Shown here: positions 1,672-25,148 of the stretch, piece by piece | How the letters are laid out: the number at the start of each line of letters is the position of its first letter | Numbering within the stretch: position 1 is the stretch's first letter | Program-made: the position numbers and the translations under genes | The notes under the pieces: generated by a model | The model's database searches: none | The model's input: the letters and a program-made list of their open reading frames with translations, nothing else | What the model was told of the DNA's origin: nothing | Source of the DNA: Candidatus Omnitrophota bacterium | GTDB taxonomy: Bacteria; Omnitrophota; Gorgyraeia; Gygaellales; Profunditerraquicolaceae | Length of the DNA stretch: 32,001 nucleotides | Assembly: GCA_003644385.1 (NCBI GenBank) | Contig: QNCD01000008.1 | Span: 1 to 32,001 of the forward strand | Direction of reading: 5' to 3'

Positions 1672-1690
1672 AAAAGGAAAATTAAAATTT

Positions 1691-2683: not shown

Positions 2684-2698
2684 ATAGGGAGGTAATAA

Positions 2699-4094: not shown

Positions 4095-4907
4095 ATGAAG
4101 AACGTTTTAACTATTGATGTCGAAGGCATAGAACATTCACGTTTTGAAAGATGTGCTCCTAGAGTCGGCTCTTTTAATCTCGATTTGATTGATAAGCCCC
4201 TCGTGGAGCTTCTAAACTTATTAGATAGATTTGATGCCAAAGCAACTTTCTTTATCCTTGGCGAAGTGGCTGAATCAATGCCGGAATTAGTGAGGTTAAT
4301 TTACAGCAAAGGCCATGAAGTAGCCAGCCACGGTTACCGGCATCACCCGGTTTACCTTCTTAAACCTGAAGAGTTCAGGGAGGATCTTTTACGCTCCAAA
4401 GAAATAATCGAAGACATAATTGGCGAACGTATCCTCGGCTACAGGGCTCCTTACTGGTCCATAACCGATAAGAATTTATGGGCGATGGATATAATTAAAA
4501 GTTGCGGCTTGTTGTATGATTCTAGTATTTCTCCTGCGGTAAACTTTTTATACGGGATGAAGTCTGCGGAGCGGATTACTTATTTTCACTCTGCCGGATT
4601 CTGGGAAGTGCCACCCACGACCCTACGGATATTGAATAAAGTAGTTATCGTGGCAGGAGGATTTTATCTACGGGCACTGCCATACTGGCTTACAAAGAAC
4701 TATGTAGATTTGATAAATAAAAAAAAGCGTTACGCTATCTTTTATCTGCATCCCCATGAACTGCTTAATTATTATTTTAAAGAGAAGTTCTCCTTGAGAG
4801 AAAACTTTATATTAAATTACAAGAAACATACATTCAGAAACAAGTTATTCAGGGCACTTGAAGATTTTAAATTTCAGACATTAAGGGAAGCGCTTGCACT
4901 TAAATAA
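4095..4907 (+). CDS. NodB-type polysaccharide deacetylase, XrtA-locus type
   Basis: This is a 270-residue NodB-homology protein. TIDVEG at 6-11 carries the motif 1 acids (Asp8, Glu10). TFFILG is at 51-56. SHGYRHH supplies the metal ligands His79 and His83. GYRAPYWS at about 115-122 is motif 3, and YLHPHE at 217-222 is motif 5. This arrangement, an immediate TIDVE start and a C-terminal HPHE, is that of the deacetylases found in exosortase/PEP-CTERM (XrtA) exopolysaccharide loci. It would remove N-acetyl groups from hexosamines of the polymer. No signal peptide is seen, so it may act in the cytoplasm on intermediates. A femAB-like gene follows directly with a 1-base overlap, a pairing also typical of XrtA loci. 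Confidence 0.9.
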   Translation: MKNVLTIDVEGIEHSRFERCAPRVGSFNLDLIDKPLVELLNLLDRFDAKATFFILGEVAESMPELVRLIYSKGHEVASHGYRHHPVYLLKPEEFREDLLRSKEIIEDIIGERILGYRAPYWSITDKNLWAMDIIKSCGLLYDSSISPAVNFLYGMKSAERITYFHSAGFWEVPPTTLRILNKVVIVAGGFYLRALPYWLTKNYVDLINKKKRYAIFYLHPHELLNYYFKEKFSLRENFILNYKKHTFRNKLFRALEDFKFQTLREALALK

Positions 4908-5968: not shown

Positions 5969-7260
5969 AGGTTATAACTATTTTTATTTTATCGTTTTTG
6001 GCCCGGTTAATTGCGGTCTTTACGTTAAGGTCTGCGCTTAGCGGGGATGCCCAGGTTTACAATTCCCTGGGAAGATCAATCGCTGACTGGGGTGTTTTCA
6101 GTATTGCAATGTTAAGCAAGTTTCCCCTTAAGGACCATCCTTTATATCCTTTATTTATAGGGATAAATTATACTCTATTCGGTGAGAACCCGTTTTTTAT
6201 CTGCCTTCTCCAGTCTTTAATCGGTGCTGTGTTTTGTATTTTAATTTATTATATCGCTAAAGAATATTTTGACGAAAAAACCGCCCTTTGTTCAGGCATT
6301 ATTGCCGCATTTTACCCGCTTTTTATCAAATTAAATACCATGTTGCTGTCGGAAAACTTGTTTATTTTTATCTTTACTTTCTCTCTATGGTTGGTTATTA
6401 AGTTTGTAAAATCTTCGCGTTTTAGCTTTTTGGCTCTTTGCGGCTTTGCTTTAGGTTTAGCTACACTGACGCGTTCGGTAACAATTTTATTTATTTTTCT
6501 GCTTTCAAGCTATCTTTTTTACCACAATAAAAGCTACATGGGCCTAAAAAAGAATATTACTTATCAGCTGCTTTTTGTTTTAATATTCATTTTTACGATT
6601 CTTCCTTGGACTATCCGTAATTACTATGTTTCCGGAGGAAGTATAATTCCGGTTACAGAAGCTGCGGACAGGGGGCTGTATAATTCCTTCTGCCCTTACA
6701 AGGGAAAGATTTTTGGTATCCGGCCTGATGATGACCCCGTAATGCAGGAGGCAAGAAAAATCAGCTCGTTTAAAGAAAGAAGGGCATTTTTCTTTGCAAA
6801 AACACTGGATTTTGTCAAGAATAACCCGGGTAAAGTCGCTAAATTAGAGGTTTTGAAGCTTCTGTATTTATGGTCGCCTTTAGATTGGGAAATTTTGGGT
6901 GACGGTAAAGCAACGTATAATTCCGGCTATGTTTTTATCTTGCCATTTTTTCTTTACGGAACCTTCCGTCTTATTGCCACCAGGAAAGAGAATTACGTCT
7001 TGTTTTTTCTTCCCATTTTTTATTTTCAGATTATTCACCTGGTTTTCTTTGCTTTGCCCAGGTTCCGCTTGAGCTTTGAGCCGTTATTAATCATCATCGG
7101 AGCAAGCGGAATAACATATTTGTATGAAAGAAGCAGGCAAAAAAAGATTTTTATGGCGGTAACGCTTATTTATTTGGTTTTTAACTTGGTGTTGTTTATG
7201 AATTCACAACAAATAAAGTTTTTCTTAAGAGGTGCTTGTGAAAAAATCGGCTTGTGGTGA
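5965..7260 (+). CDS. GT39-like integral membrane glycosyltransferase
   Basis: This is a polytopic membrane protein of 431 residues from the chosen ATG. It shows the GT-C/PMT_2 pattern: an N-terminal membrane helix, then a short outer loop with SGDAQVYNSL (the acidic residue expected of ArnT/PMT enzymes) and HPLYPLFIGI. Many hydrophobic helices follow, with TRSVTILF and PWTIRNYY as further family-like blocks. Such enzymes use polyprenyl-phosphate sugars on the outer face of the membrane. The frame is also open from a TTG at 5941, but the ATG at 5965 gives a classical ATGA overlap with the preceding stop and has AAGGCGG at 5947-5953 upstream. Specific donor and acceptor are unknown. Confidence 0.8.
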   Translation: MKVITIFILSFLARLIAVFTLRSALSGDAQVYNSLGRSIADWGVFSIAMLSKFPLKDHPLYPLFIGINYTLFGENPFFICLLQSLIGAVFCILIYYIAKEYFDEKTALCSGIIAAFYPLFIKLNTMLLSENLFIFIFTFSLWLVIKFVKSSRFSFLALCGFALGLATLTRSVTILFIFLLSSYLFYHNKSYMGLKKNITYQLLFVLIFIFTILPWTIRNYYVSGGSIIPVTEAADRGLYNSFCPYKGKIFGIRPDDDPVMQEARKISSFKERRAFFFAKTLDFVKNNPGKVAKLEVLKLLYLWSPLDWEILGDGKATYNSGYVFILPFFLYGTFRLIATRKENYVLFFLPIFYFQIIHLVFFALPRFRLSFEPLLIIIGASGITYLYERSRQKKIFMAVTLIYLVFNLVLFMNSQQIKFFLRGACEKIGLW

Positions 7261-7271
7261 AGAAGAGATTT

Positions 7272-8708
7272 ATGAAGGTATTATTGGTTAATCCTCCTTA
7301 TTTGGAAAGTGTATATTCGGGATTCAAGCCCGCCGTACAGGTACAACTGCCGTTGGGGCTTGCATACATCGGTTCGATTATTGCCCAGGAGGGTTTATCT
7401 ATAGAGGTTTTGGACGCTAATGCCGAAGGGATGGATATTAATTCCACAGTTGATAATATTGTTGCTTCAGACGCTGATGTTGTCGGCTTTACTACGACTA
7501 CGCTTATGGTGCCGACAATAATTAAGATTATCGAGAAGGTGGGTCAGCAGTCCAATAAAAAGATAATTTTAGGAGGGCCGCATGTCACTTTTTTCCCAGA
7601 GCAGATGCTAAAGGAGTGCCCGCAAGCAGATATCATTGTGATGGGTGAAGGCGAAGAAACGGTGAGGGAATTAATACGTAAAAATTTTAACGACCTGCAG
7701 AGTATTGAGGGAATCGCTTTTAGGAGAGGTTCAGAGATATTGGTTAACAAAAAACGCCAGAGAATAAAGGACCTTAATATTTTACCTTATCCCAACCGCG
7801 ATTTATTTAAATTAGATTTGTATTCTCCGGGAGCCCTTTGGAATATCGGTTGCCGTGGGAAAAAGAGCATGACAATCATTACATCAAGAGGTTGTCCCAG
7901 CCGATGTCGTTATTGTTCATCGTTGCATTTTTGGGGGCCAGACGTTAGATTCAGGAGTATTGATAATATAATTGAGGAGGTAGAAAATCTTAAAACTAGA
8001 TATAAGATTAAGCAATTAGCGATATTGGACGATACATTTTTAGCTAATAAAAAACGCGTTGAAAGCTTCTGTGACGAGGTAGTTAGGCGTAAGATTAAAA
8101 TTAAGTGGTGGTGCTATGCCAGGCTGGATTTTCCTTACCCAGCCCAACTTTTTAAGAAAATGCGGCGAGCAGGCTGTTATGGTTTAAATTTCGGGGTAGA
8201 AAGCGGTAATCAGAAGATATTGAATGGGATAGGCAAGAATATAAAATTAGGCATGGTAGAAAGCATAATTAATTTAGCAAAAAAAGAGGGTTTTTTAATT
8301 TTAGCCAGTTTTATGATAGGCTTGCCCGGAGATACCCGTGAAACTACTGAGCAGACAATTGATTTTGCTATTCGGTTAAACCCCCATATTGCCCAGTTTT
8401 GTATCACTACTCCTTTCCCGGGGACAGATTTGTACGAAGAAGCGCTGCGGAAAGGTTGGTTAAAAGATGTCAGGTGCTGGGATGATATGGGATTGCATCA
8501 GGAGACAAAATTCAGGAACGATGACTTGACCAGTGAAGAGATCTATCAATTATATAAGTTGGCGCACAAGAAATTTTATTTCAGGGTCGGATATTTTTGG
8601 CTTATTTTTAAGCATCTGGTGAAGAATCCAGCGCAAATTACAGGTTTCTTCTTAGCCGGCATTTACATGATAACCGAAATATTCAGGAGCAAAGAAAATG
8701 CACATTAG
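7272..8708 (+). CDS. B12-binding-domain radical SAM protein (first of two)
   Basis: Numbered from the ATG at 7272 the protein has 478 residues. Residues 1 to about 135 form a Rossmann-like B12-binding domain: KVLLVNPPYLE, LPLGLAYIG, VVGFTTTT, ILGGPH, GEGEE. The classical DxHxxG cobalamin ligand motif is not obvious. The radical SAM core follows with SRGCPSRCRYCS, its three cluster cysteines at 208, 212 and 215, then LDDTF, GVESGN and the MIGLPGDT block. A roughly 90-residue C-terminal tail closes it. Members of this class do methylations, cyclisations and other radical chemistry on lipids, glycans or cofactors. The substrate cannot be told. In-frame GTGs at 7254 and 7257 are alternative starts. 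The ATG fits the family N-terminus and has GAAGAAGAG just upstream. Confidence 0.85.
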   Translation: MKVLLVNPPYLESVYSGFKPAVQVQLPLGLAYIGSIIAQEGLSIEVLDANAEGMDINSTVDNIVASDADVVGFTTTTLMVPTIIKIIEKVGQQSNKKIILGGPHVTFFPEQMLKECPQADIIVMGEGEETVRELIRKNFNDLQSIEGIAFRRGSEILVNKKRQRIKDLNILPYPNRDLFKLDLYSPGALWNIGCRGKKSMTIITSRGCPSRCRYCSSLHFWGPDVRFRSIDNIIEEVENLKTRYKIKQLAILDDTFLANKKRVESFCDEVVRRKIKIKWWCYARLDFPYPAQLFKKMRRAGCYGLNFGVESGNQKILNGIGKNIKLGMVESIINLAKKEGFLILASFMIGLPGDTRETTEQTIDFAIRLNPHIAQFCITTPFPGTDLYEEALRKGWLKDVRCWDDMGLHQETKFRNDDLTSEEIYQLYKLAHKKFYFRVGYFWLIFKHLVKNPAQITGFFLAGIYMITEIFRSKENAH

Positions 8709-9426: not shown

Positions 9427-10854
9427 ATGAATTACCTTAAATTATTTTTTTTAGGAATACTATTAGGCGTATTGCTATTTTTAAGCCCTGGCTCTTTCTG
9501 TATCGTATCGTTCACAGCTTTATTTTTGTTTCACATCTACGCTAAGGGCGCATCGAGAGAAAAATATTTCTTAGTTAATCTCTTTGCATTTGCTTTTTTT
9601 ACGCGGGCACTCTTTTTTTTTTTTATGAGCGGAACTTTAGTTTGGCAAGACCATATTCTGACTTATCCTGGTTACCCTGGCTGGGCGCCAAATATTCCAA
9701 ATTTATTCGGCGATAGTTCATATTATGCGCTTAGAGGGTATTGGATGGCTTTAGACTGGAAGCAGGTGGCCTTATCCGATAAGGTGCTTAGATCAGCTTA
9801 TAACCCGATATACGGCTGGCACGGCTATAGCTACATCGTTGCCCTTTATCATTATATTTTCGGGTTTAGCCCGGTAAGTACGGCATTAATGAATTGTCTG
9901 TTTGGCGCATTATTGGCAATTTTGTCTTATTTTATCGCAAGAATGTTCCTTACGGAAATGGTATCGAGGTTGTTTGCTGTGATTGTTGCATTTTTCCCGT
10001 CTTTATTTTTTTGGTCTACCACTAACCTTAAGGATATTCCTGTTATCCTTTTGACATTTTTCATTTTTTGGTCTTTTTTATGTTTCTATAAATCGCAAGG
10101 CAGAAAGAGAATAAAATTCTTGTTATTTTTACTATTCGGTCTGTTGATTCAGGCTAAATTTCGTATTTTCTTGATGCCACTTACTGCGCTATCCATAATT
10201 ATAAGTTATTTTATAATAGCCAACAAGCCCAAGGGAGCCTTAAGGGTGATGGGGTTTGTTATATTTTTATCTATACTTGTCCTAATTGCTTTTAGAAAAG
10301 TCGATTTTAAGAAGCTTGATACCTTTTTCAGGTATAAGATTTTCAGGGCCCTATCTATACATCAGGCTGGAGCCCTGGATAAAGGCTCGAATTACAGGAT
10401 CCTCGAAGATAAATACTATATACTGAATAAAAATTTTAAATACCTTAGAGATAGGGATGAGGAGAATTATCTATTTCCGCTTACCAGGCTTACATATGGC
10501 CAGTATTTAGCCGCATATACAAGGGGCGTTATACATTTTCTCTTTGAGCCTTTTCCCCGTAGAGTGGATAATTGGCTGAAGATGATTGCTTTCATCCAGG
10601 TGGTCTACTGGTATATTCTTATTCCTTTTGCCTTATGGGGACTTTTTATTGTCAGCAGATACAAGTGGAAAGAATGTATGGTATTTTTCGTTTATTCCTT
10701 TATTTTAGTTTCGGTATGCGCTTTGACCCAGGCTAATATCGGCACAGTTTTCAGGTTCAGGGATATGGTGACTCCTGTTTTTTTGCTGTGGGCGGCTGTG
10801 GGTTTGGTTAAAGCAAGCGGCGGCAGAATAATTAAAAGGGAGGAGCCAGCATAA
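9427..10854 (+). CDS. GT39-like polytopic membrane protein
   Basis: This is a 475-residue, strongly hydrophobic protein with about ten or more membrane helices. After two N-terminal helices there is a long outer loop containing GDSSYYALRGYWMALDW, then YNPIYGWHGYSYIVALYHYI. It next has helices with ALMNCLFGALLAILSYFIAR and a TTNLKDIP loop. That order matches GT-C enzymes of the ArnT/PMT type, which use a loop acid (here Asp of GDSS) and a polyprenyl-phosphate sugar. Overall similarity to the named families is weak, so function is given only at class level. It starts directly after the stop of the CDP-alcohol phosphotransferase homologue, with GAGG upstream, and ends 2 bases before another GT-C-like gene. 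Confidence 0.65.
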   Translation: MNYLKLFFLGILLGVLLFLSPGSFCIVSFTALFLFHIYAKGASREKYFLVNLFAFAFFTRALFFFFMSGTLVWQDHILTYPGYPGWAPNIPNLFGDSSYYALRGYWMALDWKQVALSDKVLRSAYNPIYGWHGYSYIVALYHYIFGFSPVSTALMNCLFGALLAILSYFIARMFLTEMVSRLFAVIVAFFPSLFFWSTTNLKDIPVILLTFFIFWSFLCFYKSQGRKRIKFLLFLLFGLLIQAKFRIFLMPLTALSIIISYFIIANKPKGALRVMGFVIFLSILVLIAFRKVDFKKLDTFFRYKIFRALSIHQAGALDKGSNYRILEDKYYILNKNFKYLRDRDEENYLFPLTRLTYGQYLAAYTRGVIHFLFEPFPRRVDNWLKMIAFIQVVYWYILIPFALWGLFIVSRYKWKECMVFFVYSFILVSVCALTQANIGTVFRFRDMVTPVFLLWAAVGLVKASGGRIIKREEPA

Positions 10855-10856
10855 CT

Positions 10857-12677
10857 ATGCAGTTTTTTTTGCTGATAAGCAGTTCTGTTTTATTGGTTAT
10901 TTTTTCTATTTTTTCCGTGCAGGGAAAACTGGCTCATTTTTTTTCTATCCCTTTACCCATAGCCATTCACGGAAATTTTCCCATACCGATTATATTTTGG
11001 GCAGGAATGTTTATTTATTCACTGGTAGCCTCCAGCATTACCAAATGTTCGCAAAGAACCGGCATTAGAAAAATTCTTGCTACAGGGTTTTTTATGCATA
11101 TGCTCCTTTTGCTTTTGAGATTGAAAATTCAGGCTGGAATGAATCCTGAGATTTTTAGCTCTTTTATATATAAATGGTATTTCGAATTGTTCTTTTTGTC
11201 TGCTTTTACTGTCTTAGTTTTATATAGCGCAAAATTAGTTTATTCGATTGTACAGGGTTGCAAAAAAGAATTCATTAGTTTAGAAGAAGAATCCTTTTCA
11301 TTGCCTTTTCTGCCGTTTTTGGTGTATATTATCACTTTTCTTTTTTTAAAAAAAGAAAGGCTTTACGGCAGTATCTTTATTCTTGAATTCTTAGTAGGAT
11401 TAACAATGTTTCTCTTCTTCGGAAGTTTTTTAAAAAATACTTGCCTAGTGTACCTAAAAAAAATTCGAGATTTTATTCTTCAGGAAAAAATATTTATTAT
11501 CTTAATTTTTTGCGTTTCTGTTTTAATCCGTTTATTCTATCTTTACCGGATTATGCAGGACCCTGACTATATATTAACAGGTTCAGACGGCACTCTTTAT
11601 GATAGTTTAGCGCATTCTTTTATAATGGGTGAGAAAGTTACCGAACCTTTAGTGGCAGGTTACTGGATGTTTGTGGCTTTAATTTACAGGGTATTTTCAA
11701 GAAGTTATTTAGCTGTAGGAATTATCCAGGCTATATTAACTTCTTTCGGCTGCGTTTTTGTATATTTTGCGGCAAAATATATTTTCAACATCAGAGTTGC
11801 CAGAATTATTGCAATTATAAGTGCGGTAAACTTTGCCTCTATTTTCTCTTCTGCGGCAATTGGGCATCAGGCGCTGGATATATTTTACTCGACTTTAATA
11901 CTGCTACTTATTTCTCAATTTATAACCCTCGAAAATAAATCGCCAGGAAGCAATATCTTAATTCTTGTTTTTCTGGGGGTAACTTTTGGCCTATCAATAG
12001 CAACCCGTGAAATAAATTTGTTTTTTCCGTTTATATTCGCAGCTTGGCTGATATTTTATCCTCAAAGGAAAACAGGCTTGAAAAAGGTTTCTTTATACTG
12101 CCTGGCAATGTTTGTTTTTACTGCATTGACTCTTGCCCCATTCGCTGTTAGGAATTTAAAAAATACAGGCGCTTTGTATCCGGTATCTGCCACCGAAAAT
12201 GCCGCTTACCCGCTGATTGATCATTATTTAAAAGGAGAGAACCCGGATTTGATTAAAGCAGGCATAGATCTTTCACAGCCCAAAGACCTTGTAAGAGTAT
12301 TTTACGAAAAGCCGTTTTTTGTTTCAGGTGTATTAGCGAATAATTTCTGGCATAAGTTTAAAGCTCTCTATTTTAATCAGGGCTACGGCGGTTTTGACAT
12401 GCTTTTTCTTTACAGGCTTAGCGGTTATTATTATGCCATGTGGTTTTATGCTTACCTCTTTACGATAATCGGTATTTTTCTGGCATTTAGAAGATACGGA
12501 TTCCGTCTGCACTCAATAGCATTTTTTTTTATTGTTTATCGAACCTTAGTGCATTTTCTTACCGAGGGTTCATACCGGCACAGGGCAGCAATAGAACCTT
12601 TTCTTTTACTTTATTTAAGCTTCGGTTTATATGCAATTATTAAATTTATAAGGAGCAGTCAAGATGAAGCTGCCTAA
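10857..12677 (+). CDS. Large GT39-like membrane protein with extra N-terminal membrane domain
   Basis: This is a 606-residue polytopic protein. The C-terminal part, from about residue 215, has the GT39 layout: a helix, then a loop with LTGSDGTLYDSLAHS, a WMFVALIYRVF helix, AVGIIQAIL, and an ATREINLFFPF block. It continues with APFAVRNLKNTG and ends with GSYRHRAAIEPFLLLYLSFG, the usual end of these enzymes. The first roughly 210 residues are an additional membrane region of several helices not normally seen in GT39 proteins. It is not recognisable to me. The predicted role is sugar transfer from a polyprenyl-phosphate donor on the outer membrane face. It overlaps the next gene by 14 bases. Confidence 0.7.
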   Translation: MQFFLLISSSVLLVIFSIFSVQGKLAHFFSIPLPIAIHGNFPIPIIFWAGMFIYSLVASSITKCSQRTGIRKILATGFFMHMLLLLLRLKIQAGMNPEIFSSFIYKWYFELFFLSAFTVLVLYSAKLVYSIVQGCKKEFISLEEESFSLPFLPFLVYIITFLFLKKERLYGSIFILEFLVGLTMFLFFGSFLKNTCLVYLKKIRDFILQEKIFIILIFCVSVLIRLFYLYRIMQDPDYILTGSDGTLYDSLAHSFIMGEKVTEPLVAGYWMFVALIYRVFSRSYLAVGIIQAILTSFGCVFVYFAAKYIFNIRVARIIAIISAVNFASIFSSAAIGHQALDIFYSTLILLLISQFITLENKSPGSNILILVFLGVTFGLSIATREINLFFPFIFAAWLIFYPQRKTGLKKVSLYCLAMFVFTALTLAPFAVRNLKNTGALYPVSATENAAYPLIDHYLKGENPDLIKAGIDLSQPKDLVRVFYEKPFFVSGVLANNFWHKFKALYFNQGYGGFDMLFLYRLSGYYYAMWFYAYLFTIIGIFLAFRRYGFRLHSIAFFFIVYRTLVHFLTEGSYRHRAAIEPFLLLYLSFGLYAIIKFIRSSQDEAA

Positions 12678-13671
12678 AAAATATACCTTAATCTCGATTA
12701 TTATTACTATTATAGCACTAAGCGTGGCCTTTCGAGATGTCAAAATAAACTATATTTTTGACTATATAAGAAAAGGCAGATATCTTTATATGGTTCCGGC
12801 ATTTTTGTTCTTATGTCTTTATTGTTTTTTACGGGCAATACGCTGGGGGGTATTTTTCACAAAGAAGATCAGCTTAAAAGGTCTTTTTGCGGCTACCATG
12901 GTTGGTTTTATGGCGAATAATATATTTCCGGCCAGAGCCGGAGAGTTTTTAAAGGCTTATATGCTGGGCAGGAGCCAATCGGTAAGTAAGAGCACCTGTT
13001 TTGCTACGGTAATCTTAGAGCGCTTATGGGATGGTTTAACGCTTGTTTTCTTCATGGGCTGTATTTTTTTACTATCCACTTTTAGCGGAGGTTTTAACCT
13101 TGGCTATAAGTCTCAGTACGGATCATTGAAATTCGCATCCGTAATCTTTATCCTTTTTTATGCAGTCGCATTTTTTTTCATAATTAACTGGGAGAAATAT
13201 TTCCAGAAAATAAACGGGGTTTTAACCAAAATCTTAAAAATTTTTTCGGTAAAATTCGCTGAACATTTTAGCTTCAGATTAGTAAAGTTTTCGGAAGGTT
13301 TAGCGGTTTTTAAAGACCACAGGAAAATAATCGTGTCCATAATCCTGTCTATTGCTATTTGGGTTTCCGCTGCTTTAACAATTTATTTTATGCTTAAGGC
13401 ATTTTCTATGAATTTAAGCTTTTTGGCCCCTTTTGTTCTTTTAATTTTTATAGCCTTATTCGTAATGTTACCCTCCTGGGGTACGCTGGGGACTATGCAG
13501 ATGGGTTTTATTTTCGGATTAGGCTTATTTGGAATCAGCAAGCCGGAAGCTTTAAGTTTTTCCTTCGTATACCAGTTTTTTGACACTGTTCCGGTAATAA
13601 TTGTAGGTTTGGTTTATTTTTGGCGGTTCGGCTTGGCATTCGATAAACTTTTAAAAATAGAGGATGGATAA
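12664..13671 (+). CDS. LPG-synthase-TM / AglD-type flippase-like membrane protein
   Basis: This is a 335-residue membrane protein of the UPF0104 / lysylphosphatidylglycerol synthase transmembrane family. The diagnostic region is FMANNIFPARAGEFLKAY, with RAGE at 91-94, followed by ILERLWDG at 117-124. About eight helices are visible. It lacks the cytosolic aminoacyl-transferase domain of MprF, so it is the membrane half only. In archaeal AglD a DPM1-type GT2 domain is fused to such a region. Here a separate GT2 gene follows 2 bases later, which suggests a role in making or moving a polyprenyl-linked sugar. That role is inferred from context. The start overlaps the previous gene by 14 bases, with AGGAG at 12651-12655 upstream of the ATG. 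Confidence 0.8.
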   Translation: MKLPKKYTLISIIITIIALSVAFRDVKINYIFDYIRKGRYLYMVPAFLFLCLYCFLRAIRWGVFFTKKISLKGLFAATMVGFMANNIFPARAGEFLKAYMLGRSQSVSKSTCFATVILERLWDGLTLVFFMGCIFLLSTFSGGFNLGYKSQYGSLKFASVIFILFYAVAFFFIINWEKYFQKINGVLTKILKIFSVKFAEHFSFRLVKFSEGLAVFKDHRKIIVSIILSIAIWVSAALTIYFMLKAFSMNLSFLAPFVLLIFIALFVMLPSWGTLGTMQMGFIFGLGLFGISKPEALSFSFVYQFFDTVPVIIVGLVYFWRFGLAFDKLLKIEDG

Positions 13672-13673
13672 AA

Positions 13674-14381
13674 ATGAAAAAGATTAGCCTTACTTGTTTT
13701 TTTCCTTGCTATAACGATGCCGGTTCTATAGCGAGCATAGTTGTTCTCGCAAATAAGACAGCTTCTGAGATTACGGATGACTACGAAATTATCGTTATCG
13801 ATGATTGCAGCCGAGATAACAGCCGCCTTGTCTTAAAGGAGCTGAAGCAGAAATTTCCGCGCTTAAGGTTAATTTTTCACGAGAAAAACAAGGGTTACGG
13901 CGGCGCACTGAAATCGGGATTTTACGGCGCGACTAAAGAATTTGTTTTTTACACGGATGGCGACTTTCAATATGACGTTACGGAATTAAAAAAACTGGTA
14001 GGCGGATTAGACGAGAATACCGATGTGGTCAACGGTTATAAGATTTCGCGCTCCGATCCGTTAAACAGGATAATCATCGGCAGGACTTATCAGTATCTTA
14101 TGAAATCCCTGTTTAATTTAAAAATAAAGGATGTTGACTGTGATTTCCGTCTTATGCGCAGGGCTATTTTTGATAAGTTAAAACTTAAGCACGACAGTGG
14201 AGTAATCTGTGTTGAGATGATCAGGAAGATTCAGGACTTAGGCTATAAGTTTAAAGAGGTACCTGTATCGCATTACCACCGGGTATACGGCAGCTCGCAG
14301 TTTTTTAATTTCCGAAGGATTTTTCGCGTAGCTAAGGATTTATACAAACTATGGTGGAGTTTTAAGCGGGGGGCAAAATGA
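13674..14381 (+). CDS. GT2 glycosyltransferase, polyprenyl-phosphate sugar synthase type
   Basis: This is a 235-residue family 2 glycosyltransferase. Motifs are FFPCYNDAGSI at the N-terminus, IDDCSRDNS, NKGYGGALKSG, and TDGDFQYD with the metal-binding D95-x-D97. Further on are DCDFRLMRR and a C-terminal EVPVSHYHRVYGSSQFF, all characteristic of DPM1/GtrB-like enzymes that load a sugar on a polyprenyl phosphate. It has no membrane helices of its own. The neighbouring LPG-synthase-TM gene 2 bases upstream may supply the membrane part. It is only distantly similar to the GT2 at 3403, so the two probably use different sugars. The stop overlaps the next ATG (ATGA). Confidence 0.85.
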   Translation: MKKISLTCFFPCYNDAGSIASIVVLANKTASEITDDYEIIVIDDCSRDNSRLVLKELKQKFPRLRLIFHEKNKGYGGALKSGFYGATKEFVFYTDGDFQYDVTELKKLVGGLDENTDVVNGYKISRSDPLNRIIIGRTYQYLMKSLFNLKIKDVDCDFRLMRRAIFDKLKLKHDSGVICVEMIRKIQDLGYKFKEVPVSHYHRVYGSSQFFNFRRIFRVAKDLYKLWWSFKRGAK

Positions 14382-14791
14382 ATATCAGATTAGAAAAAGT
14401 CAGGTGGGTAAAGCTGCCTTCAGTAAAAGATTCCAGGGGCACTTTGACTTCTATAGAAAGTAATATCGATACTCCCTTTCTCGTTAAGCGTATTTTTTAT
14501 ATGCACCACATTGTTTCGGACAGGGGAGGACATGCCCATATTGATACGGACCAGGTTATTATTGCTGTTTACGGCAAATTCAAAGTCGGCTTGTCAAACG
14601 GAGTCGAAAAGAAAAGATATGTTATGGAGGATCCGGCTAAAGGGCTCTATGTGCCGAGAATGATTTTTATAAGCCTTTACGGTTTCTCGAAAGGTGCGGT
14701 ATGCATGGTTTTAGCCAGCACGCATTATGATATTAAGAAATCAATCAGGAGCTGGCAGGATTACTTGGAATTTATAAAGAGAGGAAAATAG
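14378..14791 (+). CDS. FdtA/WxcM-like sugar 3,4-ketoisomerase
   Basis: This is a small cupin of 137 residues, the usual length of FdtA/QdtA/TylM3-like dTDP-4-keto-6-deoxyglucose 3,4-ketoisomerases. The hallmark DRGGHAH is at 48-54. His52 and His54 correspond to the catalytic histidines of FdtA. PSVKDSRGTLTSIE is the normal N-terminal block, and VPRMIFISLYGFS, CMVLASTHYD and the terminal RSWQDYLEF match the family's C-terminal half. These enzymes move the keto group from C4 to C3, preparing the sugar for 3-amination. That fits the DegT aminotransferase encoded four genes on. It starts in an ATGA overlap with the GT2 gene, and the 2,3-dehydratase gene follows 3 bases later. Confidence 0.85.
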   Translation: MNIRLEKVRWVKLPSVKDSRGTLTSIESNIDTPFLVKRIFYMHHIVSDRGGHAHIDTDQVIIAVYGKFKVGLSNGVEKKRYVMEDPAKGLYVPRMIFISLYGFSKGAVCMVLASTHYDIKKSIRSWQDYLEFIKRGK

Positions 14792-14794
14792 ATA

Positions 14795-16243
14795 ATGACT
14801 CATTCGGCAAATCGGATAAAAGACGTATTTTTTCTGCCCGGCGCTAAATTGAATAAAACTTTCAGCCGGGAGGAAGAATTCATGGCCTGGTTTGAATCTA
14901 GAAGGAGGGCGAATTACTTTTCGGTTGAGCAGATTCCGCTCGATTCATTTGAAAACTGGTATTTTGAGAAAAAGACGCAAAACCTAGTGCATACATCTGG
15001 AAAATTCTTTAAAATTTCCGGAATAAGGGTCAAAACTAATTTCGGGCCGGTTAAAAAATGGGACCAACCCATTATAATCCAACCGGAAATCGGGATACTC
15101 GGGGTTATAACTAAGAAAGTTGCCGGGGTGAGGTATTTCCTTATGCAAGTTAAAATGGAACCCGGTAACGTAAATATTGTGCAGCTTTCTCCTACGGTCC
15201 AGGCTACTAAAAGTAACTATACGCAAGTACATAAAGGAAAATTGCCCGCCTACCTTGCTTATTTCCTTGATAGGAGAAATTCAAGGTTCCTGGTTGATTT
15301 ACTACAGACAGAGCAAGGAGGGCGTTTTTTAAAAAAACGCAACAGAAATATGATTGTAGAGATTGACCAGGATATAGATTTGCTTGATGATTTTTGCTGG
15401 TTGAGTTCCTGGCAGATTAGGAAACTATTGACTTTAAATAATTTTGTAAATATGGATGCCAGATCAGTCTTGTCTTGCGCTCCCTTTGCGGACGGGAACC
15501 CAAGACAGCATTACGAGTTCCTCAGGCACCCCGAAAGAGAAAAGATTTTTCCTTATAGGTTAGACGATGATTTTTTAAATGATTTATTAGTTTCGATGAC
15601 CGAAGAAACACGCGCCCATAACAGCATGGACAGGATTATCAGCTGGTTTACAGAATTAAAAACAAAATACGAGTTGCAGGTTAAAGAGATTCCTTTAAAG
15701 AATGTTTCCCAATGGATGCGAACGGAGACAGAAATCAGGCATGTTTCAAAGGATTTCTTTTCGGTGATAGCGGTTTTGGTAAATGCTGGCAGTAGAGAGG
15801 TTACCCGCTGGACCCAACCTTTACTGAAGAGCTCTTCTTATGGGTTAATTGGCTTCGTTACCAAACCGATAAAGGGTGTGCTTCATTTTTTAATCCAGGC
15901 AAAAGTCGAACCAGGAAATTTTGACGTAGTTGAGATGGCTCCTACGGTATCGTGTTCTAATGTCGAACGAAGATTTAAAGAGCCTGATGCGCCACCTTTT
16001 TTAAACATCTTTGAAAATGCTGCTCCCGAACAGATTAAATACTCGGTGATTCAATCTGAAGAGGGTGGGCGCTTCTTTCATTTTCAAAATAAATGCATGG
16101 TGGTAAAAATAGATGAATCAACGGATTTAGAAATACCTCAAAATTATATTTGGATGACTTTGGGCCAGATGATGGAGCTCGTCAAGCGCAGCTATTTCAA
16201 TATTGAAGCAAGGTCTCTTTTGACCTGCATAGGCTTATTTTAA
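14795..16243 (+). CDS. NDP-hexose 2,3-dehydratase (EvaA/TylX3-like)
   Basis: This is a 482-residue protein made of two tandem copies of the hexose 2,3-dehydratase repeat, the full normal length. Copy 1 has WDQPIIIQPEIGILG from Trp89, FLMQVKMEPGN to Asn125, LSPTVQATKSNY and EQGGRF at 173-178. Copy 2 has WTQPLLKSSSYGLIGF from Trp339, FLIQAKVEPGN to Asn375, MAPTVSCSN and EEGGRF. Each copy ends with an 'ARS-LL/VL-C' block. Known members (EvaA, TylX3, SpnO) remove water from C2-C3 of dTDP-4-keto-6-deoxyglucose, giving a 3,4-diketo-2,6-dideoxy sugar. That product needs a 3-ketoreductase or aminotransferase, and both are encoded next. Most described members come from antibiotic glycosylation pathways. 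Its place in a surface glycan locus is noteworthy. Confidence 0.92.
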   Translation: MTHSANRIKDVFFLPGAKLNKTFSREEEFMAWFESRRRANYFSVEQIPLDSFENWYFEKKTQNLVHTSGKFFKISGIRVKTNFGPVKKWDQPIIIQPEIGILGVITKKVAGVRYFLMQVKMEPGNVNIVQLSPTVQATKSNYTQVHKGKLPAYLAYFLDRRNSRFLVDLLQTEQGGRFLKKRNRNMIVEIDQDIDLLDDFCWLSSWQIRKLLTLNNFVNMDARSVLSCAPFADGNPRQHYEFLRHPEREKIFPYRLDDDFLNDLLVSMTEETRAHNSMDRIISWFTELKTKYELQVKEIPLKNVSQWMRTETEIRHVSKDFFSVIAVLVNAGSREVTRWTQPLLKSSSYGLIGFVTKPIKGVLHFLIQAKVEPGNFDVVEMAPTVSCSNVERRFKEPDAPPFLNIFENAAPEQIKYSVIQSEEGGRFFHFQNKCMVVKIDESTDLEIPQNYIWMTLGQMMELVKRSYFNIEARSLLTCIGLF

Positions 16244-16249
16244 AACGAC

Positions 16250-17212
16250 ATGAGAATATTAATTTTAGGCTATTCTAAAATTGTTCGAAAGAGGGTCCTG
16301 CCGGCCCTGTTAAAAATTCCCGAAATATCAAGTATAGATATTGCCTCTGAATCCTGTGCAGCAAAGGTTTCTCTTGAGCATAAATCTAAGGGCGCTATCT
16401 ATGACGATTATGATAAAGCTTTTTCCGAAAGCAGGGCTCAGTTAATCTATATTTCTACGATAAATAGTATGCATAACCGATTAGTCAGCAAGGCCCTGCG
16501 TAGAGGGCTGCATACTATTGTCGATAAGCCCGCGTTTACAAGTTTTGAAGCAGCGAAAAAATCGATTGATTTTGCAAAAAAGTCGAAATTATGTTTAGCA
16601 GAGGCAACTGTCTATGCCTATCACCAGCAGATTCAATCGATTTTTGATATTTTTAAAAGAGCGAAGGATGCTCCGCGAAGATTAACTGCTGTCTTTTCTT
16701 TTCCTCCTATGGAGCCTGGAAACTTTCGCTATTACAGACAGTTGGGGGGAGGGGCACTTTGGGATCTTGGTCCATATGCCGTTAGTTTGGGAAGAGTCTT
16801 TTTTAATCATGAGCGGCCAATTAAGATTTTTTCTCAGGTTTGCTCTAAGGGCGGGAAAAACAAAATCGATATTTCATTTAGCGTATCGGCTCTTTATTCA
16901 GAAGGCAGGTCAATGGTTGGAAATTTTGGTTTCGATACCGGATACCGCAACCACTTGAATATATTGGGCCAGGATTTATCGGTAAGCCTTGACCGCGTTT
17001 TTAGTACGCCTGCGGATTTAGAAAACGAAATTCGTATCAGCCAGGGCAGGGAAAATAGTATCATGAAAGTTCCAAAAAGCGATAGCTTTCTTAATTTTTT
17101 AAAGAGCGTGCTCTCGGGTATTCGTTTAGGCAGCTTTAGCGATTTCAGCAAGGCAGTGTTATCCGACGCTTTAGCCCTTGATACATTACGTAAAGTTGCC
17201 CAGGGAGGCTAA
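16250..17212 (+). CDS. Gfo/Idh/MocA-family NDP-sugar 3-ketoreductase
   Basis: This is a 320-residue Gfo/Idh/MocA oxidoreductase. The N-terminal Rossmann start is ILGYSKIVRKRVLPALL. It departs from the plain GxGxxG but resembles the 'GCAxIAxRRxLPAL' start of TylC1/SpnN-type sugar 3-ketoreductases. The EKP motif appears as VDKPA with Lys93. The GGGALWDLGPY block at 166-176 carries Tyr176, the likely proton donor seen in KijD10-type enzymes. Directly following the 2,3-dehydratase, it most probably reduces the 3-keto group of the unstable diketo intermediate to a 4-keto-2,6-dideoxy sugar. The pairing is standard in deoxysugar pathways. The cofactor (NADPH or NADH) is not readable from the sequence. 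Confidence 0.85.
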   Translation: MRILILGYSKIVRKRVLPALLKIPEISSIDIASESCAAKVSLEHKSKGAIYDDYDKAFSESRAQLIYISTINSMHNRLVSKALRRGLHTIVDKPAFTSFEAAKKSIDFAKKSKLCLAEATVYAYHQQIQSIFDIFKRAKDAPRRLTAVFSFPPMEPGNFRYYRQLGGGALWDLGPYAVSLGRVFFNHERPIKIFSQVCSKGGKNKIDISFSVSALYSEGRSMVGNFGFDTGYRNHLNILGQDLSVSLDRVFSTPADLENEIRISQGRENSIMKVPKSDSFLNFLKSVLSGIRLGSFSDFSKAVLSDALALDTLRKVAQGG

Positions 17213-17215
17213 AAA

Positions 17216-18322
17216 ATGGTGATAAAAGTCTGGGATTACCTTAAGGAATATAGAGGTGAGCGAAAAGAGATATTCTCGGCTGTTAAAAAGGTTTTAGAAT
17301 CGGGTTGGCTGATACTCGGGGAAAATGTCAGAAAATTCGAAGAAGAATTTGCGTGCTACTGCGGTGTAAAATTTGGGGTCGGAGTTAACAGCGGTACGGA
17401 TGCGCTTTTTCTGGGGCTTAAGGCATTAGGTATCGATAGGAACGATGAGGTAATTACTGTATCCAATACTGCTGTTCCTACAATTGCCGCGATTGTTTCC
17501 TGTCAGGCTAAGCCGCGTTTTGTAGATATTGATCCAGGAACTTATCTTATGGATACCTCTAAAATAGAGAAAGCGATTACTAAAAGAACAAAGTGCATAC
17601 TTGCGGTGCATCTTTATGGCCAGTGTGTTAATATGCAAGAGGTGAATAAAATAGCGAAAAAACACGGTTTAAAGGTACTGGAGGACTGCGCTCAAAGTCA
17701 CGGCGCTACTTTTAAAGACAGAAAAGCCGGCTCCATGTCTGATGTCTCCGCCTTCTCTTTTTATCCCACGAAGGTGCTCGGCGGCTTCGGAGACGGCGGT
17801 ATGGTAATGACTAATAATAAATACATTTATGAAAAATTGCGTAGACTTCGTTTTTACGGAATGGAAAAAATATACTATTCATTCGAGCATGGTTATAATT
17901 CTCGGCTGGATGAGATGCATGCTGCGATTCTACTTAACAAATTAAAACACTTGGAAAAATATATAAAGGCAAGGATAGCGTTGGCTCATAGATACAATGA
18001 TTATTTAGCTGATAGCGGACTGATTTTACCTGAGGTAGCTTGTGGTAACAGGCATGTTTATTATTTGTATGTTTGCAGGCATAAAAGAAGGGATTATATA
18101 ATTTCCGAACTTAAAAAAAGAAATATTTTTGTTAATGTTAGTTATCCCTGGCCAATTCACATAATGAGAGCCTACCGCTATTTGGGTTATCGCAAGGGGA
18201 GTCTGCCGCATAGCGAAAAGGCAGCGACAGAGATATTTTCATTACCGATGTACCCTTCGCTATCTAACCAAGAGCAAATGCGGGTAAGCCAGGCATTGAA
18301 GGCAATATTAAAAAAAATCTAA
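17216..18322 (+). CDS. DegT/DnrJ/EryC1 PLP-dependent sugar aminotransferase
   Basis: This is a 368-residue fold-type I aminotransferase of the DegT family, full length. GVNSGTDALFLGLKAL binds the cofactor phosphate. LEDCAQSHGA at 155-164 has Asp157, Gln160 and His162 around the ring. SFYPTKVLGGFGDGG places the PLP-linking Lys186. The C-terminus contains NSRLDEMHAAIL, as in FdtB/QdtB/DesV-type enzymes. It would aminate a keto sugar nucleotide at C3 or C4. Upstream FdtA-like and EvaA-like genes make a 3-keto or diketo substrate likely. A 4-keto product of the LegB-like enzyme is an alternative. GGGAGG at 17203-17208 precedes the ATG by 7 bases. No cognate N-acyl- or N-methyltransferase adjoins it. 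Confidence 0.9.
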   Translation: MVIKVWDYLKEYRGERKEIFSAVKKVLESGWLILGENVRKFEEEFACYCGVKFGVGVNSGTDALFLGLKALGIDRNDEVITVSNTAVPTIAAIVSCQAKPRFVDIDPGTYLMDTSKIEKAITKRTKCILAVHLYGQCVNMQEVNKIAKKHGLKVLEDCAQSHGATFKDRKAGSMSDVSAFSFYPTKVLGGFGDGGMVMTNNKYIYEKLRRLRFYGMEKIYYSFEHGYNSRLDEMHAAILLNKLKHLEKYIKARIALAHRYNDYLADSGLILPEVACGNRHVYYLYVCRHKRRDYIISELKKRNIFVNVSYPWPIHIMRAYRYLGYRKGSLPHSEKAATEIFSLPMYPSLSNQEQMRVSQALKAILKKI

Positions 18323-18381
18323 AGAGGTCTGAACTAGAGGTTGATTAATTTTTTTTGTGTCTAACCAACAGTTTAAAGCTT

Positions 18382-19842
18382 ATGCGGTTTAAAAAAGTTT
18401 TATTAGTAAATCCTTTTTATTCTTCTAAATTCTACCCAATTCCGGTTTTACCGGCCGGCCTGGGATATTTGGCTGAATGTTTGAAATCAGCCTTTATTGA
18501 TTACGACATAATCGATATGGCATTAGGGTATGATTTAGCCGATTTAAAAAGGAAAATTAAGTCATATTCGCCTGATTTAATCGGTTTCAGCATAATGACC
18601 TATCGCTATATGAATACCTATGAGGTTATCGCGGAGGTAAAAAAAGAATTTCCGCAAATTAAAATTGTCTGCGGAGGTCCGCATATATCGAATTTAAAGA
18701 ATAAGATTTTTGAAGAGTGCCCTGATATAGATTACGGCGTAACTTTTGAAGGAGAAGAAACTTTAATAGAATTGGCAAGCGGTAATCAATTGGAAAGTAT
18801 TAAAGGCTTAATATACAAAAAGGGCGACAAAGTGGTGTATAACGGAGACAGGGATTTTATCGTGGATTTAGACCGGATTCCCTTTCCCAGATACGAAAAA
18901 TTCGAAATCGATAAATACAAGTACGGTATTAGCATGGTCACTTCGCGCGGATGCCCTTTTTCTTGTATTTATTGCTCTTGCCACCTGCTGGGTAAGAAAA
19001 TAAGATTCCGCAGCCCTGGAAATGTCGCAGAGGAATTTGAGTATTGGTATGGAAGGGGATTCAGAGAATTCGGTTTACAGGAAGATAATCCTACCTTTAA
19101 TAAAGAGAGGATGTACCGGCTTTGTGATGAGATAGAGAAAAAAGGGCTAAAAGGTATTATGATTATGTGCGGTAACGGCGTAAGGGCGGATAGAATTGAT
19201 AAAGAACTGCTTATCCGTATGAAACAGGCCGGATTCAAGAGGCTTGCTTTTGGGGTAGAGGCGGGAAACAACGCCATATTGAAGAATATTAAAAAGAATT
19301 TAAAAATAGAAACAATTGAAAATGCTATCAGCACTGCCTGTGACTTGGGATTTTACGTAAGTCTCTTTTTTTTGGTTGGTTCTCCGGGAGAGAGGGTAAA
19401 GGACGTGAGGGATTCCATAGCTTTGGCTCTTAAATACCCTGTTTCAGATGTTAAATTTAATAACTTAGTGCCTATTCCGGGTACTGAACTGTACAGATGG
19501 GTTAAAGAAAATAATTACCTTTTGATGGAGGAGGACGAATATTTGAATATGGACCCACCGGCACAATTAAGTAACCGAGTAGTATTTCAGACTCCGGAGT
19601 TTACTGCTTCTGAGAGGTTAAAGATGTTGAAAGAGACTAAAAATGTAGAACGCAGGGTGAAAAGGCGTGTTATAGAAAGAAAGTTGCCGTTCTGTCTCGG
19701 CCTGAATAAAGCAATTGCACGTTTATACACTACTGATTTTATAAGGGGTCTTGAAAGTGTATTGTTTTCTTCCCAGGGAGCAAGGGAGAGTATTGGCAAA
19801 ATCAGAATGCGCGTAAGAAAATACATTTATGAAAGATCATAG
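18382..19842 (+). CDS. B12-binding-domain radical SAM protein (second of two)
   Basis: This protein is 486 residues from the ATG at 18382. The N-terminal B12-binding-like domain reads KKVLLVNPFYSS, LPAGLGYLAE, LIGFSIMTY, VCGGPH and EGEET, without a clear DxHxxG motif. The radical SAM core has TSRGCPFSCIYCSC with cluster cysteines at 191, 195 and 198, then RFRSP, LQEDNPTF, FGVEAGN and the FLVGSPGE block. It shares the architecture of the protein at 7272 but clearly differs in sequence. It sits just after the deoxysugar cassette, so an action on that sugar or its lipid carrier is possible but unproven. The frame is open upstream to a TTG at 18355, but the ATG gives the family N-terminus. The preceding 59 bases are the longest non-coding gap between intact genes and hold no recognisable promoter. 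Confidence 0.85.
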   Translation: MRFKKVLLVNPFYSSKFYPIPVLPAGLGYLAECLKSAFIDYDIIDMALGYDLADLKRKIKSYSPDLIGFSIMTYRYMNTYEVIAEVKKEFPQIKIVCGGPHISNLKNKIFEECPDIDYGVTFEGEETLIELASGNQLESIKGLIYKKGDKVVYNGDRDFIVDLDRIPFPRYEKFEIDKYKYGISMVTSRGCPFSCIYCSCHLLGKKIRFRSPGNVAEEFEYWYGRGFREFGLQEDNPTFNKERMYRLCDEIEKKGLKGIMIMCGNGVRADRIDKELLIRMKQAGFKRLAFGVEAGNNAILKNIKKNLKIETIENAISTACDLGFYVSLFFLVGSPGERVKDVRDSIALALKYPVSDVKFNNLVPIPGTELYRWVKENNYLLMEEDEYLNMDPPAQLSNRVVFQTPEFTASERLKMLKETKNVERRVKRRVIERKLPFCLGLNKAIARLYTTDFIRGLESVLFSSQGARESIGKIRMRVRKYIYERS

Positions 19843-23255: not shown

Positions 23256-25148
23256 ATGTGCGGTATTTGCGGTATTATTGATTTTAACAGAAAAAGCACG
23301 GTTGATGCAGGCCGTATCCGTTCTATGTGCGATGAAATGAAGCATCGCGGCCCTGACGGTGAAGGAATATACGTAGAAAACAGCGATGTATCAGTGGGGT
23401 TAGGCCACAGGAGGCTTAGTATCATTGATTTGACTAAGGCCGCATCGCAGCCTATGTCAAATGAGGACTCAACGCTATGGTTTGTTTTTAACGGTGAAAT
23501 ATACAATTATAGAGAATTAAGGCAAGAATTGATAGGTAAAGGGCATAAATTTAAATCCGCATCCGATTCGGAAACCTTAATTCATCTCTATGAAGAAATG
23601 GGCGAAGATTGCATAGAGTCTATACGCGGAATGTTTGCCTTTGCCATATGGGATGCTAAAAAACAAATTTTATTTTTAGCCCGGGACAGAATTGGCAAGA
23701 AACCTTTACTTTATTCATTTAATAACGGAGTATTTTGTTTTGCATCGGAATTCAGCGCACTTTTAAAAAGTGGACTGATAAAAAAAGATATTAATCTTAA
23801 CGCAATAAATTCATATCTATCCTATGGGTATATACCTGCGCCTTTTACAATTTATAGGAGTGTTTACAAACTTTTGCCTGCGCATACCCTTATTTTAAAA
23901 AAAAATCAGATTCAAACCCGAGAATTTTGGCAATTGAATTACGCTAAAAAGATTAATATTTCCGAAAAGGAAGCAGAAGTAGAAATCCTGCGCAGATTAA
24001 AAGAGGCAGTAGGGCTCAGATTATATAGCGACGTTGCCTTAGGGGCTTTTTTAAGCGGCGGTATCGATTCTAGTTCAGTTGTAGCGCTGATGAGCGAGCT
24101 ATCTTCAGAAAAAGTAAAAACTTTTTCTATCGGATTTGAAGAAAAGGAATACAGCGAGTTAAAATATGCAAAAAATATCGCACGCAAATTTAATACGGAG
24201 CACCACGAGTTTATTGTTAAACCTAAAGCACTGGAAGTCCTGCCGTTATTAGTGGAGCGTTATGGAGAGCCTTATGCGGATTCTTCATGCATTCCTACTT
24301 ATTATGTTGCCCAGCAGACAAAACGCTATGTAACCGTTGCCTTGAACGGAGACGGAGGAGATGAACTTTTTGCGGGGTATGAGCGGTATCAGGGGATGGT
24401 TGCCGCCCAGCTGTATAAAAGCCTGCCCAAGGTGATAAAAATGATAATATCGGGGTCTTGCCGTTGCCTACCTGATTCTATTAACCCTAAAAACAGGTTT
24501 AGGAATATTAAGAGATTTATGGAGGCGGCAGATCTTAAGACCCAATATAGGTATTTCCGCTGGATGGGAATATTCGATGATAGCTTAAAAAATTCCCTTT
24601 ATTCGGATAATTTCTCAAATAAATTAGATAAGCTCGGCCCTTACCAGTATCTCTTAGACTGCTTTGACAAAAACGAAAACTTGGATTTCCTTGACAAGTT
24701 ACTGTTGATCGATGCTACTACTGTTTTACCAAATGATTATTTGGTCAAAGTGGATATTGCCGGGATGTCTAATTCTCTTGAGGGGCGTTCCCCGTTTTTG
24801 GACCACAAATTTATGGAATTTGCCGCCAGCCTGCCTGCAGAATACAAATTAAGGAATTTCGTGAAGAAATACATTATGAAAAAAATAATCAGAAGATTCG
24901 TTCCTAAAGAAAATATTTTCCGCCGCAAGATGGGTTTTGCTGTGCCTATTGCGGCCTGGTTTAGGAACGAAATGAAAGAATTTCTCTGCGAGACAATTCT
25001 TTCTGAGCGCGCACTGGCAAGAGGATATTTTAAAAAAGAGGTTGTCTCTACCCTCGTAAAGCAACATCTGGAGCGTCAAAAAGACCATGCATTTCAATTG
25101 TGGGCGCTTTTAATGCTTGAATTATGGCACAAGAGATTTATTGATTAA
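23256..25148 (+). CDS. Asparagine synthase-like glutamine amidotransferase, XrtA-locus type
   Basis: This is a 630-residue two-domain enzyme. The N-terminal class II glutaminase starts MCGICG with nucleophile Cys2, and has RGPDGEG, GHRRLSIID and FNGEIYNY. The C-terminal ATP-pyrophosphatase domain has SGGIDSS at 267-273, SIGFEE, EPYADSS and LNGDGGDELFAGY, then KVDIAGM and the RSPFLDH block. All expected catalytic residues are present and the length is normal. AsnB homologues in exopolysaccharide loci, including XrtA-type loci, are thought to amidate a carboxyl group such as that of a uronic acid. No uronate-forming gene is visible in this window. It lies 2 bases after a GT4 gene, and an eroded gene follows. 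Confidence 0.9.
   Translation: MCGICGIIDFNRKSTVDAGRIRSMCDEMKHRGPDGEGIYVENSDVSVGLGHRRLSIIDLTKAASQPMSNEDSTLWFVFNGEIYNYRELRQELIGKGHKFKSASDSETLIHLYEEMGEDCIESIRGMFAFAIWDAKKQILFLARDRIGKKPLLYSFNNGVFCFASEFSALLKSGLIKKDINLNAINSYLSYGYIPAPFTIYRSVYKLLPAHTLILKKNQIQTREFWQLNYAKKINISEKEAEVEILRRLKEAVGLRLYSDVALGAFLSGGIDSSSVVALMSELSSEKVKTFSIGFEEKEYSELKYAKNIARKFNTEHHEFIVKPKALEVLPLLVERYGEPYADSSCIPTYYVAQQTKRYVTVALNGDGGDELFAGYERYQGMVAAQLYKSLPKVIKMIISGSCRCLPDSINPKNRFRNIKRFMEAADLKTQYRYFRWMGIFDDSLKNSLYSDNFSNKLDKLGPYQYLLDCFDKNENLDFLDKLLLIDATTVLPNDYLVKVDIAGMSNSLEGRSPFLDHKFMEFAASLPAEYKLRNFVKKYIMKKIIRRFVPKENIFRRKMGFAVPIAAWFRNEMKEFLCETILSERALARGYFKKEVVSTLVKQHLERQKDHAFQLWALLMLELWHKRFID

Follow-up and report, generated by a model that had tools for sequence, protein, structure and literature searches.

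Do four adjoining genes in an Omnitrophota surface glycan locus make two different sugars, or do they act in an unusual order on the way to a single aminated 2-deoxy sugar? The genes lie in a 32,001-nucleotide stretch (referred to here as the window) of contig QNCD01000008.1 from a Candidatus Omnitrophota bacterium, and are predicted to encode an FdtA/QdtA-family 3,4-ketoisomerase (FdtA), an EvaA-type nucleoside diphosphate (NDP)-hexose 2,3-dehydratase (EvaA), a Gfo/Idh/MocA oxidoreductase (Gfo) and a DegT/DnrJ/EryC1 aminotransferase (DegT). An earlier note on this DNA had recognized these four functions and left both options open. Coordinates (Table 1), Pfam matches and catalytic residues agree with its assignments, the activities themselves being predictions, and the surface-glycan setting and the compactness of the cassette also hold. 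Between its two options the comparative evidence favors the second, because FdtA proteins of this clade occur only beside EvaA, because the clade is a diverged one, and because EvaA loci lacking FdtA have a different third enzyme.

The earlier note described a cassette of four genes; the genes are indeed kept together, but a family-2 glycosyltransferase gene (GT2) just upstream, which it omitted, belongs to the same unit. GT2 and FdtA overlap by 4 bp, and the open reading frames (ORFs) of FdtA, EvaA, Gfo and DegT, all with ATG starts, follow with intergenic gaps of 3, 6 and 3 bp. When databases were checked for the four-gene order it was found again, together with GT2, in four genomes besides that of the window, two of them other Omnitrophota (L005 and L006) and two Desulfobacterota (L007 and L044). 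Identity to the window proteins was 57-69% for GT2, 60-67% for FdtA, 64-73% for EvaA, 46-55% for Gfo and 69-73% for DegT, and between the Omnitrophota and Desulfobacterota modules it was 57-74% for four genes and 47-55% for Gfo. FdtA adjoins EvaA in seven loci (the window, L005, L006, L007, L044, L045 and L091), and in a further genome, G742, the two genes are on different contigs, each at a contig end, so that adjacency is possible there although unseen. There is no 4-ketoreductase in the five-gene unit of the window, L005, L007 or L044. Gene content, order, conservation and residues of the module are read directly from these sequences, and, judged by them, GT2, FdtA, EvaA, Gfo and DegT are one five-gene module. 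The G+C content of the module (0.40-0.41) is similar to that of its surroundings, which makes base composition uninformative on suspected horizontal transfer. As a separate observation, locus L089 of G742 (G742:C329, positions 6-3782) has an additional copy of DegT on the far side of an AbiEi/AbiEii type IV toxin-antitoxin pair, and its Gfo gene looks frameshifted or misassembled.

EvaA is rare, with 5 carriers among 384 genomes of Omnitrophota and 9 among 395 of Desulfobacterota, and a search of phages and E. coli found none. FdtA of the module clade (56-63% identical to that of the window) occurs in five of the 395 Desulfobacterota genomes, all five of which have EvaA, whereas EvaA is absent from all 25 other genomes of this set that carry more distant FdtA relatives (Fisher p = 1.6e-9, a value that is only a guide since the genomes are related). 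The window FdtA is the only FdtA in its source genome, and the same is true of EvaA, the sole Hexose_dehydrat (PF03559) protein encoded there.

The EvaA-linked FdtA sequences form a distinct clade with a tree support of 1.000 and a long stem. The catalytic His pair (RGGHAH in the motif R-G-x-H-x-H), identified from the His-to-Asn mutant entries 4o9g and 2pae, is intact in the window FdtA and throughout the eight members of the clade. Eleven residues are private to the clade: they are invariant in the 7 sequences that extend over these positions, and 10 other sequences lack them. Among the eleven, F97 takes the place of W, I98 that of R/H/K, I119 that of E and S122 that of Y. Residue 97 of QdtA (Arg97 in QdtA, His97 in FdtA) is equivalent to position 98 in the window FdtA; this site is Ile in 7/7 clade members that reach it and R, H or K in the 10 others. 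Residues 97 and 17 of QdtA, which both differ between entries 4o9e and 4zu7, are those that we take to set product stereochemistry. The Ile at this site limits stereochemical prediction, not family membership.

Pfam scores exceed their cut-offs by wide margins for FdtA, EvaA and DegT, and that of Gfo is also above its cut-off. The best solved structure for the window EvaA is EvaA itself (4j7g, E = 8e-118), and Glu139 and Glu190 of its pocket A, both required for activity (PMC8987622), are present in 18/18 aligned sequences including that of the window. For Gfo the KijD10-type sugar 3-ketoreductase structures 3rbv/3rc1 ranked ahead of all others, as a distant match (E = 1.2e-22). The catalytic Lys and Tyr of that enzyme, whose positions were taken from the mutant entries 3rcb/3rc9 (Lys) and 3rc7 (Tyr), are conserved in 16/16 aligned sequences, window Gfo included, and Gfo is predicted to reduce C3 and not C4. 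DegT matched 7b0d, QdtB, 7n63, 5u1z and 2oga best, with perosamine synthase far behind; its top PDB matches are sugar 3-aminotransferases (the group of QdtB, DesV and WlaRG) or unassigned entries. It keeps the pyridoxal phosphate (PLP) Lys186, which excludes a His-type 3-dehydratase, and in a tree the module sequences form their own clade, with DesI-like sequences on a separate long branch. Amination by DegT is predicted to occur at C3.

On balance we consider it probable that the five-gene module makes and mounts one sugar, with the enzymes acting linearly in the order EvaA, Gfo, FdtA, DegT, an order suggested by homology and chemistry. The EvaA mechanism needs a C4 ketone for removal of the C3 proton and expulsion of the C2 hydroxyl (PMC8987622). 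FdtA leaves the ketone at C3, so that EvaA cannot act after FdtA on the same molecule, and a one-sugar pathway would have to start with EvaA. The starting compound, deoxythymidine diphosphate (dTDP)-4-keto-6-deoxyglucose, would come from RmlA and RmlB, whose genes lie in other parts of the genome, and EvaA would remove from it the 2-hydroxyl to give a 3,4-diketo-2,6-dideoxy sugar, and Gfo would then reduce C3 to give dTDP-4-keto-2,6-dideoxyhexose. This intermediate may be a branch point, from which related loci would go on to reduction or 4-amination. In the module, FdtA would shift the ketone that is left at C4 to C3, where DegT would introduce the amino group to yield dTDP-3-amino-2,3,6-trideoxyhexose with no need for a 4-ketoreductase. 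Such a route uses all four enzymes and would explain why a 4-ketoreductase is absent. The competition of FdtA and EvaA for one substrate, from which the earlier note had argued, is not the sole possibility, since the chemistry lets the isomerase act after the dehydratase and the reductase. GT2 would transfer the finished sugar to polyprenyl phosphate; once this lipid-linked sugar had been flipped, a GT-C glycosyltransferase would place it on the surface glycan, the flippase-like and PMT_2-type neighbors being candidates for these last steps. A 3,5-epimerase was looked for in the unit alone and is not present there, which suggests a D-sugar. We infer each activity, and likewise the order, product, stereochemistry and lipid carrier, from homology and chemistry.

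The precursor could be made by the source genome. The window contains no clear RmlA/RmlB pair, as had been noted before, but both enzymes are encoded in other parts of the genome: RmlA at C20:1873-2724 (447 bits, cut-off 361) and two copies of RmlB at C20:130-1059 and C2:44077-45018 (413 and 406 bits, cut-off 365). Two window candidates were rejected. The dehydratase at 1691-2683 scored 173 bits as RmlB against the cut-off of 365 and is LegB-like instead (418 bits), and the nucleotidyltransferase at 2699-3406 scored 62 bits as RmlA against the cut-off of 361.

Loci that have EvaA and lack FdtA indicate what may follow the first two steps. In seven loci (L027, L028, L029, L046, L047, L088 and L090) FdtA is missing from the surroundings of EvaA; no strong FdtA is found in their genomes either, and all seven pair EvaA with Gfo. 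In L028, EvaA and Gfo are followed by an RmlD that scores above the RmlD cut-off, and both proteins fall within or beside the module clade (support 0.66-0.96, moderate); with module-like EvaA and Gfo and with RmlD for FdtA and DegT, this locus gives the impression that both pathways pass through one intermediate and that what follows it has been exchanged. L088 combines EvaA and Gfo with a short-chain dehydrogenase/reductase (SDR), and L027, L046 and L090 combine them with DegT proteins that group together in the tree and are DesI-like. The best solved structure for the DegT of L027, the one tested, is 2po3 (DesI). In L029 (8490-11258), EvaA is split into two single-domain genes that flank the Gfo gene.

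The same four enzyme types also occur within ~7 kb in macrolide clusters of Streptomyces plasmids (NZ_CP108444, NZ_CP139176), although in another gene order and together with rfbABC, a macrolide polyketide synthase, two glycosyltransferases and a methyltransferase. In the FdtA of these plasmids, unlike that of the module clade, the canonical Arg and Glu are retained. The idea that a 2-deoxy substrate calls for Ile at the site equivalent to position 97 finds no support, because Streptomyces FdtA near EvaA keep Arg, and the residue changes thus mark the clade without being a proven condition for using such a substrate. All eight of the eight Streptomyces plasmids with an FdtA relative (including NZ_CP108444, NZ_CP139176 and NZ_CP120998) also carry an EvaA relative within ~7 kb. 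We propose tentatively, judging it slightly more apt to fail than to stand, that the module clade is a 3,4-ketoisomerase specialized for a 2-deoxy substrate, acting after a 2,3-dehydratase and a 3-ketoreductase, that it would give an antibiotic-type 3-amino-2,3,6-trideoxyhexose without a 4-ketoreductase, and that Omnitrophota and Desulfobacterota would mount this sugar on their surface via polyprenyl phosphate.

Several observations weigh against a single sugar made and mounted by one unit. The locus of G443 (L045) has no GT2, with a sulfotransferase-like gene upstream in its place, and that of G800 (L091) carries a different GT2 upstream of FdtA. In L047, an exception to any simple pattern, EvaA and Gfo are accompanied by a 3-aminotransferase-like DegT although its genome has no FdtA, which implies that FdtA is not always needed beside such a DegT. 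The residues of the FdtA clade could reflect some other specificity change, and the Streptomyces clusters, with their two glycosyltransferases, do not decide between one sugar and two. An RmlD-like protein encoded elsewhere in the source genome (C20, L030) could finish a second, 2,6-dideoxy sugar. If two sugars were made, FdtA and DegT would produce a dTDP-3-amino-3,6-dideoxyhexose (Fuc3N or Qui3N), and EvaA and Gfo would produce dTDP-4-keto-2,6-dideoxyhexose, to be finished by a 4-ketoreductase from outside the unit, a role for which the genome encodes RmlD-like proteins. Classically, 3-amino-3,6-dideoxy sugars come from FdtA/QdtA paired with a QdtB-like aminotransferase, and EvaA and Gfo suffice with RmlD or SDR in L028 and L088. 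We nevertheless regard two sugars as unlikely, since neither pair was seen alone in this form (the module-clade FdtA only with EvaA), the unit lacks a 4-ketoreductase in every genome that has it, a single dedicated GT2 travels with it, and its FdtA is strongly diverged from the canonical enzymes.

The L047 pattern would also fit a classical EvaB-type order, in which DegT aminates the 3,4-diketo product of EvaA at C3, Gfo reduces C4, and FdtA is an accessory enzyme, for instance one that works on a side product or serves as an epimerase. The succession of 2,3-dehydratase, 3-aminotransferase and 4-ketoreductase is the published angolosamine route in kidamycin-type clusters (PMC9452638). We hold it to be less likely again for the module, because the closest characterized relative of Gfo is a 3-ketoreductase, both of whose catalytic residues are kept, and because this order has no role for FdtA, though FdtA is retained with its catalytic His pair in every one of the eight clade genomes. 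The least likely reading, and in our judgment an improbable one, is that the FdtA-family protein performs another reaction on a 2-deoxy intermediate, such as C3 or C5 epimerization via an enediol, and that DegT aminates C4 to give a 4-amino-2,4,6-trideoxy sugar. The Ile found throughout the clade at the QdtA Arg97/FdtA His97 equivalent would be consistent with such a change, as would the related loci that combine EvaA and Gfo with a DesI-like aminotransferase, but DesI-like and perosamine-synthase enzymes are much more distant from DegT than 3-aminotransferases are, and the isomerase His pair is retained.

The proposed one-sugar route resembles several known systems in part. Like the dTDP-Fuc3N and dTDP-Qui3N pathways (FdtA-FdtB, QdtA-QdtB), it would use a 3,4-ketoisomerase and then a 3-aminotransferase on a dTDP-keto-deoxysugar in a surface glycan setting. 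Those pathways, however, lack a 2,3-dehydratase or 3-ketoreductase, whereas the FdtA of the module belongs to a clade of its own, marked by 11 private residues, and the unit contains no N-acyltransferase. With 2,6-dideoxysugar pathways (EvaA-type dehydratase, Gfo/Idh 3-ketoreductase, 4-ketoreductase) it would share the first two steps, as seen for EvaA-Gfo-RmlD in L028, but FdtA and DegT stand in place of the 4-ketoreductase. The angolosamine-type pathways of Streptomyces (kidamycin, medermycin; angolamycin) likewise have a 2,3-dehydratase and a 3-aminotransferase, and the predicted product of the module would be the N-demethylated counterpart of the angolosamine-type 3-amino-2,3,6-trideoxyhexose. 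The kidamycin proposal comprises a dehydratase, an aminotransferase, a 4-ketoreductase and an N-methyltransferase, with no isomerase (PMC9452638).

The enzyme families are all known; their combination and the surface-glycan setting appear to be new. No surface-glycan use of this enzyme set was found in the open-licence literature, and the angolamycin study (Schell 2008), which is outside that scope, could hold the same order. To our knowledge, 2,3-dehydratases have been described almost only from antibiotic glycosylation, and a module conserved in two unrelated phyla, whose members are uncultured or anaerobic, would show antibiotic-type sugars to be building blocks of the surface as well. If true, the proposal would describe how amino-2-deoxysugars can be made with no 4-ketoreductase, and the diverged isomerases would allow tests of what controls substrate and product stereochemistry.

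Table 1. Module genes and upstream neighbors in the window, and other genomes with the five-gene order (MAG, metagenome-assembled genome).
Feature	Position	Strand	Evidence or remark
Two PMT_2-type membrane proteins	9427-10854 and 10857-12677	+	PF13231 41 and 28 bits
Flippase-like membrane protein (LPG_synthase_TM)	12664-13671	+	PF03706 149 bits; TIGR00374 105 bits, above cut-off
GT2, ArnC/DPM1-like	13674-14381	+	PF00535 94 bits
FdtA/QdtA-family 3,4-ketoisomerase (predicted)	14378-14791	+	PF05523 122 bits (cut-off 23); nearest PDB QdtA, FdtA
EvaA-type NDP-hexose 2,3-dehydratase (predicted)	14795-16243	+	tandem PF03559 x2, 487 bits (cut-off 25)
Gfo/Idh/MocA oxidoreductase, predicted sugar 3-ketoreductase	16250-17212	+	GFO_IDH_MocA 52 bits (cut-off 24)
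DegT/DnrJ/EryC1 aminotransferase, predicted sugar 3-aminotransferase	17216-18322	+	PF01041 381 bits (cut-off 20)
L005, Omnitrophota MAG JAKPTF010000082			five-gene order
L006, Omnitrophota MAG JAGYNB010000029 (= G035:C22)			five-gene order; DegT cut by contig end
L007, Desulfobacterales MAG JACQWO010000051			five-gene order
L044, G406, Desulfobacterota, relative of L007			five-gene order

GT2 is predicted to load the finished sugar on polyprenyl phosphate, with donor and acceptor inferred. Only ArnC entries in the PDB reach E <= 1e-10 against it (best 5.6e-19), and its score against PRK10714 is 79.5 bits, under the cut-off of 529. ArnC is the undecaprenyl-phosphate 4-deoxy-4-formamido-L-arabinose transferase. 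The ArnC/ArnT aminoarabinose system offers an analogy, in that a GT2 loads an aminosugar on polyprenyl phosphate and a GT-C enzyme then moves the sugar, but the sugar chemistry is different and the GT2 match is distant (72 bits). A gene of the LPG_synthase_TM type is also found immediately 5' of GT2 in L005 and L006, and the flippase-like protein is a possible partner of the module. Relatives of the PMT_2-type proteins lie upstream of the module in L005, and in L007 it has PMT_2 proteins on its flanks; the two window proteins are candidate GT-C glycosyltransferases that would use the polyprenyl-phosphate sugar.

Other genes of the glycan locus were recorded. Deacetylase, FemAB-like and amidotransferase genes at 4095-5968 and 23256-25148 of the window resemble an XrtA/PEP-CTERM exopolysaccharide set, each scoring under its NCBIfam cut-off. 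The locus also has two B12-binding radical SAM genes (window 7254-8708 and 18355-19842), and in L005 (11496-14156) the counterpart of the second is fused to the next GT4 glycosyltransferase in an ORF of 886 amino acids. A NodU-like carbamoyltransferase gene (window 25858-27579) adjoins that of a Wzx-type flippase (27581-28867), which suggests that the glycan is carbamoylated.

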